NCBI RefSeq assembly: GCF_003001995.1
Contig: NZ_PVNB01000005.1
Coordinates: 124,001 to 188,000 of the forward strand
From: Orenia metallireducens
GTDB lineage: Bacteria; Bacillota; Halanaerobiia; Halobacteroidales; Halobacteroidaceae
DNA length: 64,000 nucleotides
Reading direction: 5' to 3'
The notes under the pieces: generated by a model
Database searches by the model: none
What the model saw: only the letters and a program-made list of their open reading frames with translations
Told to the model about the DNA's origin: nothing
Made by a program: the position numbers and the translations under genes
Shown: positions 31,925-39,973 of the stretch, piece after piece
How positions within the stretch are numbered: position 1 is the stretch's first letter
Layout of the letters: each line of letters begins with the position of its first letter

Positions 31925-31966
31925 ACCCACCTGAATAATGACTGATAACTTCATTATCCAGGCGGG
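31925..31966 (-). terminator. Expression-platform terminator of the ZTP riboswitch
   Basis: Stem CCCGCCTG-ATAATGA / TCATTAT-CAGGTGGG followed by TTTATTTTTT. The 5' arm is the conserved CCGCCTG end of the aptamer, so ligand binding and termination are mutually exclusive. Confidence 0.85.
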
Positions 31967-32032
31967 CGACTTTAAAATAGATTATACTCCCCCATGGTTA
32001 ATTCCATGCTTTCCGCCAGTCGTATAATCCTC
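31958..32032 (-). ncRNA. ZTP riboswitch (pfl motif)
   Basis: Minus-strand sequence contains GATTATACGACTGGCGG, a hairpin closing with ACCATGGGGGAG, the complementary GTATAATC, and CGCCCGCCTGG: all conserved blocks of the pfl/ZTP class. It senses ZMP/ZTP, which build up when 10-formyl-tetrahydrofolate is short. Its position ahead of pflB is the arrangement after which the motif was named. Confidence 0.9.
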
Positions 32033-32053
32033 TTTATATTCTTTTATATTTCT

Positions 32054-35284: not shown

Positions 35285-35322
35285 TATATTTTATTATTTT
35301 AATGTGATAAAGGATAAATGAA

Positions 35323-35360
35323 AAATAAGACTGGTCCTAATTTTAGGACCAGTCTTATTT
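35323..35360 (-). terminator. Terminator after agrD
   Basis: Perfect AAATAAGACTGGTCCTAA/TTAGGACCAGTCTTATTT stem seven bases beyond the agrD stop. Confidence 0.9.
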
Positions 35361-35366
35361 TAGGTC

Positions 35367-35489
35367 TTATTTATCCTCTTTCAAAGCCTTAGGTAACTCT
35401 GGTTGATAATTACCAGCACCACATGCAGCAACTACATTTTTCTCAGCTGATCTCTTTAACAGCTTAGCTACAACCTCTTTTACCTTCAT
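35367..35489 (-). CDS. agrD: AgrD-like cyclic autoinducer propeptide
   Basis: A 40-residue peptide with the three-part AgrD layout: amphipathic basic N-terminal leader (MKVKEVVAKLLKRSAEKNVV), a core with a single cysteine (C23 in AACGAGNY), and the conserved charged tail QPELPKALKEDK. The tail is what AgrB recognises. Mature signal is expected to be a thiolactone ring starting at C23; its C-terminal boundary (likely around N27-Y28) cannot be fixed. The ATG overlaps the agrB stop as ATGA, so the two are translationally coupled. It was found by reading the 3' side of agrB by hand. Confidence 0.88.
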   Translation of the reverse strand: MKVKEVVAKLLKRSAEKNVVAACGAGNYQPELPKALKEDK

Positions 35490-36124
35490 CGACTCACCCC
35501 CTTTCTTATACTATCTACTCTTATATACTCTTTATTGAATAATTTATAAGCTAACGGAGTTATCGTAAATATCTGCCAAACAACCCCAAATAAACTACTC
35601 AAGACATAGCTATCCACCTCTAACATTAAGTATAGACTAAAATCGATTAGTAGCACAATAAAAAAAGCAATAAATGAACTGATCTTTAACCTAACCCTTT
35701 TGGGTAGAGCAGTCAATGGCTTCTCCTTCACCCCTGCTGGAGCATAAGAATAGATCAGAATAGCCCCTATCATTAGTACCAGCCATAATAATATAAAGAT
35801 AACTCCCCGATTTATACTCATTACTAAATAATTAGCTAACAATCCTAACCCCACACAGACCACTGTACCCAATAAAGCACACCTTACATAGGTAGAAGCA
35901 TGGAAACCCCCTGAGAACCTTCTAATTATCCCGATACTAATTGCAGCAGTTACTGCCAATTCAGGTACACCGACCATTAACCCTACTATTACTATCGCTA
36001 TCAAATCGATGACCGTTACCAATATCATCCTCAGCCCATAACCCATTATCTCCTGCTCATCATCAGAATAGTCTTTATAATAATAAGTAACTACCTTATT
36101 ACTTAACAATCCTAACTTGTCCAT
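35486..36124 (-). CDS. agrB: AgrB-type autoinducer peptide-processing membrane protease
   Basis: 212 residues, polytopic, with the AgrB catalytic dyad H75 and C82 in RRFSGGFHASTYVRC, spaced 7 apart as in S. aureus (H77/C84). The APAGVKEKPL segment following the central helices is also characteristic. It cleaves the AgrD tail and forms the thiolactone. GGAGGTG six bases before the ATG at 36124 excludes the longer upstream start. It is coupled to agrD downstream, and the array of membrane proteins and kinase lies upstream in the same direction. Confidence 0.94.
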   Translation of the reverse strand: MDKLGLLSNKVVTYYYKDYSDDEQEIMGYGLRMILVTVIDLIAIVIVGLMVGVPELAVTAAISIGIIRRFSGGFHASTYVRCALLGTVVCVGLGLLANYLVMSINRGVIFILLWLVLMIGAILIYSYAPAGVKEKPLTALPKRVRLKISSFIAFFIVLLIDFSLYLMLEVDSYVLSSLFGVVWQIFTITPLAYKLFNKEYIRVDSIRKGVSR

Positions 36125-36354
36125 CTGGCACACCTCCACTAATAAAATAATCATATCCCTTGCGATTGAATCTTATCTCTTCAAGCCAATTCTAAAAGCA
36201 ACTTGACCTAAATAAAAATATCTATAGTAGACCAAGCTGTAATATAATTAAATCACCAGCAAATCAAAACATTACAGGATAGTACACACTATGGACTACT
36301 TAAATTACTAGAATTTGAAACTGATTCAATCTAACATTATAACTTAAGTTAATT

Positions 36355-36408
36355 TTATCTTTTAAAGCAGGTTGTCAAAAATTTCCGAAAATAGTATATT
36401 CTCATCAT
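36355..36408 (-). CDS. Candidate 17-residue leader peptide upstream of agrB
   Basis: ATGATG preceded by GGGGAG (36414-36419) opens a 17-codon frame, MMRIYYFRKFLTTCFKR, then stop. It lies about 35 bases after a good promoter and 230 bases before agrB. It is basic and aromatic with one cysteine near the end. It could be a regulatory leader peptide or a second signal; no family is recognised. Short frames with a Shine-Dalgarno sequence can occur by chance. Confidence 0.35.
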   Translation of the reverse strand: MMRIYYFRKFLTTCFKR

Positions 36409-36439
36409 ATTAACTCCCCACTATCTTATTTATATTCTA

Positions 36440-36468
36440 ATTATATCACCTTATGTAAAAAAATGCAA
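36440..36468 (-). promoter_or_regulatory. Promoter of the agrBD unit
   Basis: TTGCAT (36463-36468), 17-bp spacer, TATAAT (36440-36445). It gives a leader of roughly 310 bases before agrB, unusually long for a simple operon. Between 36125 and 36350 I see no gene; a perfect AACTTAAGTT palindrome lies at 36341-36350. Confidence 0.65.
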
Positions 36469-36589
36469 TAATAGGTTGTTATTTATTTATGTGGATAAAT
36501 CATATCGGTTTAAATCATTAACTCTGTCGCTTCTAGGATAAATATCCAATCAATTAAATAACAAAGTGAATTTTTATTATTCAACCTAA

Positions 36590-36614
36590 AAGTCCCTAGC
36601 TGCTCATAGCTAGG
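36590..36614 (-). terminator. Hairpin after the membrane-protein array
   Basis: TCCCTAGCT/AGCTAGGGA stem with a 6-base loop, followed on the minus strand by CTTTTAGG; a moderate terminator separating the kinase/receptor genes from agrBD. Confidence 0.6.
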
Positions 36615-36662
36615 GAAACATAACTAAGTAATTACTATTTATTCTCAATAATTTGTCAAAAT

Positions 36663-37143
36663 CTAATTTGATTGCCTCTCCCTCTCCATATTAATAATTC
36701 TAAAATCATACAGGTGAACCAAGATTGCAGCAATCACTAAGGGAAGTTTAGCTAAGTAAAAGAAAACCAAGAATTCAATCAATTCACCATTAAAGAACCT
36801 TACTAAATCTAACTTTAACCAATCAAGGATTATGAGGAGTAATCGCCACTTCACCTAAAAATAACACAATATAACCTAGTAAAGAAGAGATAATGGCAAT
36901 ATGCCAATCAAGTTTAACTATTACTTTAAAGAGAACTGCCAGAAATAAAACCCCTAAGATAACATGCATCCCATACAAGTTAAATATATTTCTGATAATT
37001 ATTAAAAAAATAGTACAACTACCTGCTATTTTCAGATATTTATTTAGCCTAATTTTTATACTCAATAATCCCAGACCTACGTATCCTATCAATAAAAACT
37101 CAGGGAAAATAGCCAATATACTTTGAATAAGTGATATTTCCAT
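36663..37143 (-). pseudogene. Frameshifted fourth copy of the membrane-protein paralog
   Basis: The 5' part (37143 to about 36840) reads MEISLIQSILAIFPEFLLIG and on through LYGMHVILGVLFLAVLFKVIVK to GEVAIT, then hits a stop. The 3' part, in another frame (36854-36663), reads ILDWLKLDLVRFFNGELIEF and FFYLAKLPLVIAAI, aligning with the rest of the paralogs. One extra base at about 36838-36848 accounts for the break. It is either a real pseudogene or a sequencing error; a truncated 106-residue product is also possible. Confidence 0.75.
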
Positions 37144-37213
37144 TTATCTTTCCTCCTCTAATTTTTTAAGTAAAAACTAGCCTTAATCTTCTAATTTATA
37201 ACTATAGTCTAGC

Positions 37214-37687
37214 TTATCTCTTCAACCCATAGCTCTTAAAGAGATTTATATCTCCCCAATAAATCATTACAGCAGGAACCAACAACGGTACTTTACTCAG
37301 ATAGGAATAACTCATGAATTTGATCAAATTATCACCATTAATAAAGCTTATCACTTCAAATTGCCAATAAGATAAGATCGTTGCTAGAATCAGCTCTCCT
37401 AAGAATAATAGAATATAAGCCAATAAGGACGCTATCAGCGCCAGCTCCCACTCGATTTTTACTATCACCTTAAAGACTACACTCCAGAATAAAATTCCTA
37501 AAATCACATGTAAACCGTACAACTTCAATATATCTATGACAACTATTAAAAAAGTCATGTCTATAATTGATATCTTAATATAGTCGATCACTTTAAGTTT
37601 AATTCCTACCAATCCCAAACCTACATAGCTAATCAATAATCCTTCAGGAAAAACACTAAACACAAGTTGAATAATCGATAATTCCAT
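37214..37687 (-). CDS. Stand-alone membrane receptor-like protein, paralog 3
   Basis: 157 residues, five to six predicted membrane helices and no soluble domain. It shares with its neighbours MELSIIQLVFSVFPEGLLIS, YVGLGLVGIK, the block LYGLHVILGILFWSVVFKVIVKIEWELALIASLLAYI, a GE pair, and SYLSKVPLL near the end. GGGAGGAAGG before the ATG at 37687 sets the start. The pattern recalls N-terminal sensor regions of some clostridial GHKL kinases, but here without a kinase. Function inferred from context: sensing or binding the peptide made by AgrBD. Confidence 0.7.
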   Translation of the reverse strand: MELSIIQLVFSVFPEGLLISYVGLGLVGIKLKVIDYIKISIIDMTFLIVVIDILKLYGLHVILGILFWSVVFKVIVKIEWELALIASLLAYILLFLGELILATILSYWQFEVISFINGDNLIKFMSYSYLSKVPLLVPAVMIYWGDINLFKSYGLKR

Positions 37688-37771
37688 TATCCTTCCTCCC
37701 AATCTTCCTTTAAGCAAGAAGTCAGCTAATTTATTGCCAAAAATTAATTATCACTCTCTCTATTCAATCTC

Positions 37772-38230
37772 TTAAACCTTTAAGAAATCAACCTCTCCCC
37801 AATAAATCTTTATGGCAGCTATTAGCATAAGTATTTTGCTCAAATAAGAAAAAGTCAGTAGCCTAATCAAATGACCATCACTAACAAAATTAACTACGTC
37901 AAAATCCATATAGGATAAGATTGTTGCCAGAACCAGCTCTCCCAAACTCATTAGAATATAAGCCAATAAAGAGGCTATCAGCGCCAACTCCCACTCAATT
38001 TTTACTATTACTTTAAAAAGTAAACTCAAAAATAAAATTCCTAAAATCACATGTAAACCATACAACTTCAGTATATTTCTGACAACTATTAAAAAAATCA
38101 TAAAGATCGTAGCTATTTTAAAATGATTTCTTGCTTTGGTCCTAACCCCTATTAATCCTAACCCTACATAACTAGTCAATAAGCCATCAGGAAAGACCAC
38201 CAATATAATCTTAGTAATTGACAACTCCAT
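37772..38230 (-). CDS. Stand-alone membrane receptor-like protein, paralog 2
   Basis: 152 residues, all-hydrophobic. It is very similar to paralog 3 in the central block (LKLYGLHVILGILFLSLLFKV and IEWELALIASLLAYILMSLGE), but diverged at the N-terminal loop (RTKARNHFKIATIF) and near residues 110-130. That split of conserved core and variable loops is what a diversifying receptor array would show. GGAGGAAAGGTGG lies before the ATG. It is separated by 54 and 72 bases from its neighbours. Confidence 0.7.
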   Translation of the reverse strand: MELSITKIILVVFPDGLLTSYVGLGLIGVRTKARNHFKIATIFMIFLIVVRNILKLYGLHVILGILFLSLLFKVIVKIEWELALIASLLAYILMSLGELVLATILSYMDFDVVNFVSDGHLIRLLTFSYLSKILMLIAAIKIYWGEVDFLKV

Positions 38231-38302
38231 CCACCTTTCCTCCCAATCTTCTCTTAAACAAGCAGCTATCCTTAAATCCTTTTAATCTATATCCCTATCT
38301 AC

Positions 38303-38767
38303 TCAATCCCTTAAATCTAAAAGATTAACATCTTCCCAATAAATCTTTATAGCAGCTATTATTAGAGGCACCCTACTTAAATAAAAAAAGGTCAAAAATC
38401 TACTTAAACTATCACCACTAATAAAATCCACCGCTTCAAAATTCCAATAAGATAAGATTTCTACCACAATAATTTCTCCAAAAAAGGATAGTATATAAAT
38501 TAACAATGTAGCGATCAGTGCCAGATTCCAGTCAATTCTTACTATTACTTTTAAAACTAAGCTTAAAAACAAAGCTCCTAAAATCACATGCAAACCATAC
38601 AGCTTCAATACATTTCTGACAATTATTAAAAAAATCGTAAAAAATATAGTTATCTTAAAATGATTTATTACTTTAGTCTTAATTCCAATCAATCCTAAGC
38701 TTACATAGCTAAATAATAAGCTTTCAGGCAAGACCACCAATATAATCTTAATAAGTGATAATTCCAT
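38303..38767 (-). CDS. Stand-alone membrane receptor-like protein, paralog 1
   Basis: 154 residues, five to six membrane helices. Shared landmarks: MELSLIKIILVVLPESLLFS, YVSLGLIGIK, LKLYGLHVILGALFLSLVLKVIVRIDW, GE, SRFLTFFYLSRVPLIIAAIKIYW. It directly follows the kinase gene (15 bases), so it is translated from the same message. No lipobox, enzyme motif or soluble domain is present. AAGGAGG lies before the ATG. Confidence 0.7.
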   Translation of the reverse strand: MELSLIKIILVVLPESLLFSYVSLGLIGIKTKVINHFKITIFFTIFLIIVRNVLKLYGLHVILGALFLSLVLKVIVRIDWNLALIATLLIYILSFFGEIIVVEILSYWNFEAVDFISGDSLSRFLTFFYLSRVPLIIAAIKIYWEDVNLLDLRD

Positions 38768-38781
38768 TCAATCCTCCTTGC

Positions 38782-39639
38782 TTATACAGTCCTACTCTTC
38801 TTTAAAGTACAAGTAAATTCAGTTCCAAAACCAACCTCACTCTTTAAATCTAACTTCCCTTCTCTTTCTTCAATTAAAGATTTGATAATATATAGTCCAA
38901 AACCTCTTCCATCACCTTTGGTAGAGAAACCAGGCTCAAAGATCTGGTTCTGTAGCTCTTCTTCTATAATAGGACCTGTATTATAAACAGATAAATGATA
39001 CTTATTATCATTATTCTTCCCTATCAGCCTAATCTCCTTCTTGCCATTAAATCCTTCTATAGCATCAATAGCATTGTCAACCAAGTTAGAGACCACTCTA
39101 AATAACTTATCCAAAGGGAAATCAACATCTGTAACCCCTCTTTCAACTTGATAACTAAATGAAATCCCCTGTTTTATTGCTTCAAGTTTTTTAGGAATTA
39201 AAATTGAATCGAAAATAGAGTTGGATAGATCATCATTACTAAATTTAATTTCAGATAAATCATTATTCAAAGACTTAATATATTCCCTAACTTTGTCCTG
39301 CTTATTAAGTTGTACCATCCCATAAATTGTCTGTAAGTGATTCAAAAAATCATGCTTTTGACTTCTTAAAGTACGTATCAACTTTTTATTTTGCTCCAAT
39401 TTGACCTGTTGAATCTTGAATTCAGTCTCATATTCTATCATCTTATATATCTCTTTAACTACAATCAGCGATAACATCGACAGGCCAACTACCACAAAAA
39501 TTATTATATTCAATAGCTTATCATAAGAGATTCCAAATAAATCAGATTCCTTCCAGTTCGCCATAAATAATAATAACATTGTCTGCATTAATATAATCAC
39601 TATCATTTGATACATACTATTCTTATTGATTTTATCCAA
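38782..39639 (-). CDS. Two-helix GHKL sensor histidine kinase (AgrC/Spo0B-like core)
   Basis: 285 residues: two membrane helices (about 10-27 and 43-62), a coiled linker, a DHp helix with H96 in SQKHDFLNHLQTIYG (the AgrC/DcuS/Spo0B-type H-box), and a GHKL ATPase with N-box NLVDNAIDAI, G1 YNTGP, and G2 GDGRGFGLYI. It lacks the six-helix sensor that AgrC has, leaving almost no extracellular receptor surface. Paralogous membrane proteins follow at once and could supply it. No response regulator gene is nearby. The start is TTG behind TTGGTGATG. Confidence 0.88.
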   Translation of the reverse strand: MDKINKNSMYQMIVIILMQTMLLLFMANWKESDLFGISYDKLLNIIIFVVVGLSMLSLIVVKEIYKMIEYETEFKIQQVKLEQNKKLIRTLRSQKHDFLNHLQTIYGMVQLNKQDKVREYIKSLNNDLSEIKFSNDDLSNSIFDSILIPKKLEAIKQGISFSYQVERGVTDVDFPLDKLFRVVSNLVDNAIDAIEGFNGKKEIRLIGKNNDNKYHLSVYNTGPIIEEELQNQIFEPGFSTKGDGRGFGLYIIKSLIEEREGKLDLKSEVGFGTEFTCTLKKSRTV

Positions 39640-39973
39640 TTTTCATCACCAACTAAGTTTTTGATTTAGATATATTCTACCAATATCTTCATTTATAATT
39701 TTCGACACAAATTACCATATTCCTTGGAGATTTAATTTTTAATTTTAAAAAAAGAAGCAGAAATAATCAATAATTCTTAAAAAAAAGCAGAAATAATCAA
39801 TAATTCTTAAAAAAAAGCAGAAATAATCAATAATTCTTAAAAAAAAGCAGAAATAATCAAGTATTTGTTATTAAGCTGTAATAATTCAATTTCAAAAGCT
39901 CTAATAATTTTATTATATTTTTATTTTATTTAATTTCTTCAATTACTGCTAAATACCTTTATCTTCTTTAGAT
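39640..39973 (-). promoter_or_regulatory. Upstream region of the kinase operon with a Spo0A-box-like motif
   Basis: The region holds the 30-bp repeat array (39751-39860) and, nearer the gene, TGTCGAA on the minus strand (39701-39707), an exact Spo0A box core. A TATAAAT at about 39691-39697 is a possible -10. No other gene is visible. Confidence 0.4.
39751..39860. repeat. Tandem 30-bp direct repeats ahead of the kinase operon
   Basis: Three full units and a 20-bp fourth unit of period exactly 30, starting at 39751, 39781, 39811 and 39841; the first differs at one base. Unit core GCAGAAATAATCAATAATTC. The near identity implies recent expansion. There are no spacers, so it is not a CRISPR. Confidence 0.95.

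Follow-up and report, generated by a model that had tools for sequence, protein, structure and literature searches.

The window analysed here is a stretch of 64,000 nucleotides from the 4.1-Mb genome of the halophilic bacterium Orenia metallireducens (contig NZ_PVNB01000005.1 of assembly GCF_003001995.1, positions 124,001 to 188,000), and the array of genes that it carries between dnaB and purB is very probably an agr-type peptide quorum-sensing module in which the AgrC-like receptor kinase comes as two separate proteins. To judge from sequence, the small membrane protein R would be the sensor front of this receptor and the kinase HK the rest of it. Read in the direction of transcription on the minus strand, the array consists of HK, R1, R2, R3, a frameshifted R4, a hairpin, agrB, agrD and a further hairpin. 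An earlier, sequence-only reading had described an agrB with an H/C dyad, a coupled 40-codon agrD and a GHKL kinase with two membrane helices, all of which we recovered (Table 1), and had suggested that the receptor was detached from the kinase and duplicated, a proposal that is strongly supported by the fused forms found elsewhere, by the overlap of R and HK genes and by R copy numbers of 1 to 4. The locus is a variant of the known agr system, its R family being unrecognised and nameless in Pfam and NCBIfam.

The R family profile (A2) matches 119 of the 398 Bacillota genomes (about 30%), and the open reading frames (ORFs) around its matches fall mostly into two size classes, of about 150-210 and about 440-496 amino acids. 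The long ORFs are fusions, in which an R domain (residues ~4-155) is followed by a Spo0B/GHKL kinase with two transmembrane (TM) helices (~166-441), with AgrB and a REC-LytTR regulator as neighbours in most cases. What is one whole protein elsewhere is thus represented in the window by two, R matching its front half and HK its rear half. On the kinase tree the fused or split state changes at least six times by parsimony, two of these changes being forced by well-supported branches. In one metagenome-assembled genome (MAG), HGW-Firmicutes-14, two fused R-HK kinases stand in tandem ahead of one AgrB (L167:3998-6848), which is a duplication of the whole receptor kinase.

The linkage of the genes was counted in 120 loci chosen by R alone. 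AgrB lies within 3.5 kb in 100 of them and an output enzyme is present in 115, a single locus away from contig edges being devoid of one. Of 69 same-strand pairs of R and HK genes, 61 are overlapping (38) or at most 30 bp apart, and the R gene comes first in 66. Occurrence of R without agrBD or the kinase had been named in the sequence-only reading as speaking against it; such loci literally exist, but R lacking AgrB nearly always keeps HK, and R lacking HK keeps AgrB and another output enzyme. In several genomes an inserted ORF, possibly a mobile element, breaks the R-HK-AgrB array within or before the kinase gene (L034:6547-8064; also L246 and L266).

Within the order, R homologues are present in all 13 genomes searched, the window's own included, and as none of them lacks R the locus is not a product of chance. 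R, HK, AgrB and AgrD stand together at one place in 12 of the 13, in many of them between dnaB and purB as in the window; one genome (G005) has an interrupted kinase gene, and another (G003) has R and HK without AgrBD. The sequence-only reading knew of no described system with this layout. We found no description of a split AgrC, or of AgrBD linked to GGDEF-HD-GYP, in the open-licence literature, subscription papers lying outside the search, but the layout itself is widespread and not a one-off. No R match was returned from plasmids, and the matches in phage records were mostly to kinase domains. R alignments used as query for related loci returned no relatives; with the kinase as query, the matches listed were mostly unrelated kinases and included L136, L138, L156 and L167, which were used for modelling.

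HK has the domains PF14689 (SPOB_a, E value 5e-17) and PF02518 (HATPase_c, 7e-21), with the phospho-acceptor histidine in RSQKHDF, and H96 is invariant across 13 orthologues. The NCBIfam AgrC model NF046015 aligns residues 6-260 of HK to AgrC 135-397, and on such grounds of sequence HK is the counterpart of the last two helices and kinase half of AgrC-like proteins. The aligned span is close to that of AgrC-TM5-6C, a laboratory truncation of the Staphylococcus aureus protein (residues 134-430) reported to have kept constitutive kinase function (PMC3841183). According to a 2023 review there is no solved structure of full-length AgrC (PMC10482373), and our search of the PDB turned up only the AgrC kinase module.

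R is a likely, weakly supported homologue of the staphylococcal AgrC sensor. The full-length AgrC model matches the fused member L227 over AgrC 6-395, and in HHalign the largest R profile reaches a probability of 41% against canonical AgrC sensor profiles, 61% with the bridge sequence L219 and 77% with an earlier profile that likewise has it; the alignments are co-linear, and reversed and unrelated-membrane controls stay below 1%. The AlphaFold2 (AF2) model of R1, based on nine sequences, has five membrane-length helical segments at a mean per-residue confidence (pLDDT) of 84, and that of the fused homologue L156 (Thermincola MAG; eight sequences) places five helices, then two, then the kinase, at moderate confidence (predicted TM-score, pTM, 0.43). 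We infer for R an orientation with the N terminus outside and the C terminus inside, which fits the fused proteins because their kinase must be cytoplasmic.

In our model, AgrB would process AgrD to a small cyclic (thio)lactone peptide with the predicted core CGAGNY. Each R would be a sensor front of five TM helices whose outward loops are expected to contact the peptide, and HK would supply the last two TM helices and the Spo0B/GHKL kinase, so that R and HK may assemble in the membrane as the equivalent of one seven-helix AgrC-like receptor. Binding of peptide on R would then alter kinase activity, and through the extra R copies one kinase might be driven or blocked by receptors of differing affinity or specificity.

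Several of our observations weigh against this model. No Pfam or NCBIfam family at cut-off and no PDB sequence match was found for R, and the R domains alone gave no match in NCBIfam; R1-R3 stayed without any domain match whatever the cut-off. Smaller pairs of R and AgrC sensor profiles reach 2-20%, the similarity being weak without L219. The family's first inner loop is positive and its outer loop L4 negative, and its C-terminal tail is net negative, a pattern that backs the proposed orientation only in part. As the earlier reading had stated, no response regulator is adjacent to the window locus. Of the two LytTR regulators in the genome, L293 is isolated and without order-wide orthologues, and L292 has a LytS-type kinase and a CstA-like protein as its neighbours; both were rejected as partners, and no cognate regulator of HK was found among the genome's LytTR regulators. 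The window's genus carries the rarer HK-first arrangement, which elsewhere accounts for 3 of the 69 same-strand pairs. Fourteen R loci away from contig edges have no AgrB nearby, so that the ligand of some R proteins may be a different one, or a peptide produced at another place.

The question of what else R could be was weighed against these data. For R as a member of an already known family, of transporters or otherwise, Pfam, NCBIfam, PDB sequence and fold searches gave no convincing match (best Foldseek E 3.6, and nothing convincing in a second look with VIA). R might instead be a production-side partner of AgrB in the processing or export of AgrD, outside the receptor. Its nearness to agrB in 100 of the 120 loci, with or without HK, would suit such a role, but we regard it as very improbable: R is fused to the kinase in 21 loci and a fusion to AgrB was seen in none, R and kinase are kept in loci without a nearby AgrB (e.g. 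L035, L067, L120, L138, L234, L279), and overlap of the R and HK genes is the rule. Somewhat less remote, and still improbable, is that R is a LiaF-like membrane regulator or clamp of output enzymes which does not itself bind peptide, the peptide being sensed by the two helices of HK or by another protein. On its own, the part of S. aureus AgrC made up of two helices and the kinase is active (PMC3841183), which would fit R as a restraint. In the fused proteins, however, R holds the position of the AgrC sensor, and the membrane part of HK has a single outward loop; moreover, loop L4, predicted to face outward, varies more than any other part of R (entropy 2.28), as expected for ligand contact, with the C-terminal tail nearly its equal. 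Among R1-R3 the L2 loop is invariant.

A separate doubt, compatible with R as receptor half, concerns the extra copies, which may be redundant or decaying with only one in use. The four tandem paralogues of the sequence-only reading are three intact ones (R1-R3, 152-157 amino acids, 59-63% identity to R1) plus one broken; R4 stops after 106 amino acids and resumes in another frame, and as an intact 159-amino-acid orthologue exists in the same genus (L026), it is either a frameshifted pseudogene or a sequencing error. Both this frameshift and the variation within the genus, where two genomes have 3 intact R copies and a third has 1, speak for decay. Across the order most genomes have 1 copy and several have 2; the sister genome has 3 and that of the window 4, of which one is broken. 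R1 and R3, on the other hand, each retain 87-91% identity from one genome to a second (R3 87% to its sister-genome orthologue), while R1 shares only about 60% with R3, and their ratios of nonsynonymous to synonymous change (dN/dS) against the sister genome, below 1 at 0.16-0.25 (NG86) and 0.45-0.56 (YN00), make both look constrained. No close orthologue of R2 was found in the sister genome (G001). Two or three R copies are also seen repeatedly in unrelated families and beside different outputs (e.g. L116, L130, L268, L270, L278). We hold redundancy or decay of all but one copy to be possible but doubtful. Most likely, by our inference, the extra copies are receptors of differing specificity or sensitivity on one kinase. 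That they read several peptides of the cell's own is not supported, the genome having a single AgrB and a single AgrD. With one AgrD, extra R copies would mean a shaping of the dose response or the sensing of neighbours' peptides.

Being a separate subunit, R can be duplicated, and outside this organism it can be paired with different outputs. The 120 loci comprise 68 with a split HK, 21 fused, 13 with a membrane GGDEF-HD-GYP protein, 13 with a HisKA kinase and 5 with none (four at contig edges). In the GGDEF-HD-GYP loci a stand-alone R is found with AgrB and mostly AgrD (L066, L068, L069, L240, L253, L254, L258, L268, L270, L277, L278, L284, L286), and 12 of the 13 proteins have GGDEF or GGEEF plus HD-GYP motifs (Pfam was run on three); in L258 one AgrB is accompanied both by R with GGDEF-HD-GYP and by R with HisKA. 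Compared as profiles, the membrane regions at the N-termini of the GGDEF-HD-GYP and HisKA partners prove homologous (HHalign 99.3%, E 1.5e-20, against about 1% or less for membrane controls); some HisKA proteins in the pool have only two TM segments and perhaps do not belong there. This N-terminus, common to the GGDEF-HD-GYP and many of the HisKA partners, suggests a candidate docking domain for R. A LytTR regulator is adjacent in 19 of the 21 fused and 21 of the 68 split-HK loci and in 0 of the GGDEF-HD-GYP or HisKA loci. The fused, HisKA and GGDEF-HD-GYP classes each require at least three changes on the R tree, forced by well-supported branches. The GGDEF-HD-GYP loci constitute an apparent direct link from agr peptide to cyclic di-GMP (c-di-GMP). 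We judge the chances to be even that R serves agr-type peptides generally as a plug-in receptor subunit, with interchangeable outputs (two-TM GHKL, HisKA, GGDEF-HD-GYP), several receptors of different specificity per output enzyme and some clostridial agr signals acting directly on c-di-GMP turnover without a phosphorelay.

When the genome was searched, the window pair proved to be its sole agrB and sole over-cut-off agrD, no second agrBD being found over cut-off. The agrD start overlaps the agrB end by 4 nt, and for agrB a start at 36124 is likelier than one at 36154, as an orthologue begins alike in the alignment. Most AgrD proteins of these loci follow one core pattern: a six-residue stretch opens with S, C or T, runs through four highly variable positions and closes with Y or H, directly ahead of the cleavage point, after which [Q/E]P follows. 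The window AgrD reads CGAGNY|QPELP, with cleavage point and ring both predicted. By eye, Cys is commoner in GGDEF-HD-GYP and HisKA loci and Ser in HK loci. In the AgrD of L238, L256, L271 and L274 a Lys occupies the usual Cys/Ser position of the core (e.g. SSFKFFILY|EPDVP), which could give a lactam or a shifted ring.

Table 1. Features of the array, in window coordinates, and the N-terminus common to other output proteins.
Feature	Position	Strand	Description
HK	38782..39639	-	285-aa kinase: two N-terminal TM helices, Spo0B-type DHp, GHKL ATPase
R1	38303..38767	-	154 aa, putative five-TM stand-alone receptor half
R2	37772..38230	-	152 aa, R1 paralogue (63%)
R3	37214..37687	-	157 aa, R1 paralogue (59%)
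R4	36663..37143	-	frameshifted fourth copy: 106-aa ORF 36823-37143 and remnant frame 36663-36854
Terminator-like hairpin	36593..36616	-	after R4; sets HK-R1-R4 apart from agrBD
agrB	35486..36124	-	membrane peptidase, H/C dyad in GGFHASTYVRC; PF04647 E 4e-37
agrD	35367..35489	-	40 aa; predicted six-residue core CGAGNY, then QPELP; TIGR04223 E 3e-9, over cut-off
Strong terminator-like hairpin	35322..35361	-	after agrD; 18-bp stem
Common ~190-aa multi-TM N-terminus			output proteins of L066, L068, L069, L112, L248, L254, L259, L269

Terminator-like sites in the region number 4 as compared with 1.5 expected in shuffles. Directly upstream of the HK gene, at window positions 39740-39860, there are four near-identical 30-bp tandem repeats (TAATTCTTAAAAAAAAGCAGAAATAATCAA). 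Elsewhere in the window, a ZMP/ZTP riboswitch (31949-32033, minus strand; Rfam RF01750, 57.9 bits) lies downstream of the purA/purB genes.

If R and HK act as we propose, the natural split marks a cut point of AgrC-like receptors, at which five helices are separable and two stay with the kinase. Stand-alone R proteins would be small receptor proteins to purify, turning the question of which part binds the peptide into a two-protein assay. In addition, agr peptides may act by way of different enzymes, a c-di-GMP enzyme among them, and a cell may have several receptors for a single peptide or pick up the signals of its neighbours.

A kinase with a short membrane part that relies on a separate membrane partner is familiar from multi-subunit sensor kinases such as BceS with BceAB and LiaFSR, where the partners are ABC transporters or LiaF. 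In contrast, the partner here is R, a dedicated protein of five TM helices, which elsewhere forms one chain with the same kinase. The clostridial loci with fused R-HK, AgrB, AgrD and LytTR (e.g. Thermincola ferriacetica MAG, L156; HGW-Firmicutes-14 MAG, L167) share with the window the R domain, the kinase and the AgrB and AgrD types; there, however, receptor and kinase are one polypeptide with an adjacent REC-LytTR regulator, whereas in the window they are split and none is adjacent. With agrBDCA of S. aureus the window has AgrB and AgrD homologues in common, as well as a kinase that aligns to AgrC 135-397. AgrC of S. aureus is one protein with one receptor per kinase, while in the window the first five helices are separate and multiplied, Pfam assigns the kinase DHp to the Spo0B type, the core predicted for AgrD is six residues long and AgrA is not adjacent. 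HK also resembles AgrC-TM5-6C (PMC3841183), which has the same architecture as the natural protein, the last two TM helices and the kinase; yet that construct is artificial and without a front half, which for HK of the window is encoded apart, as R.

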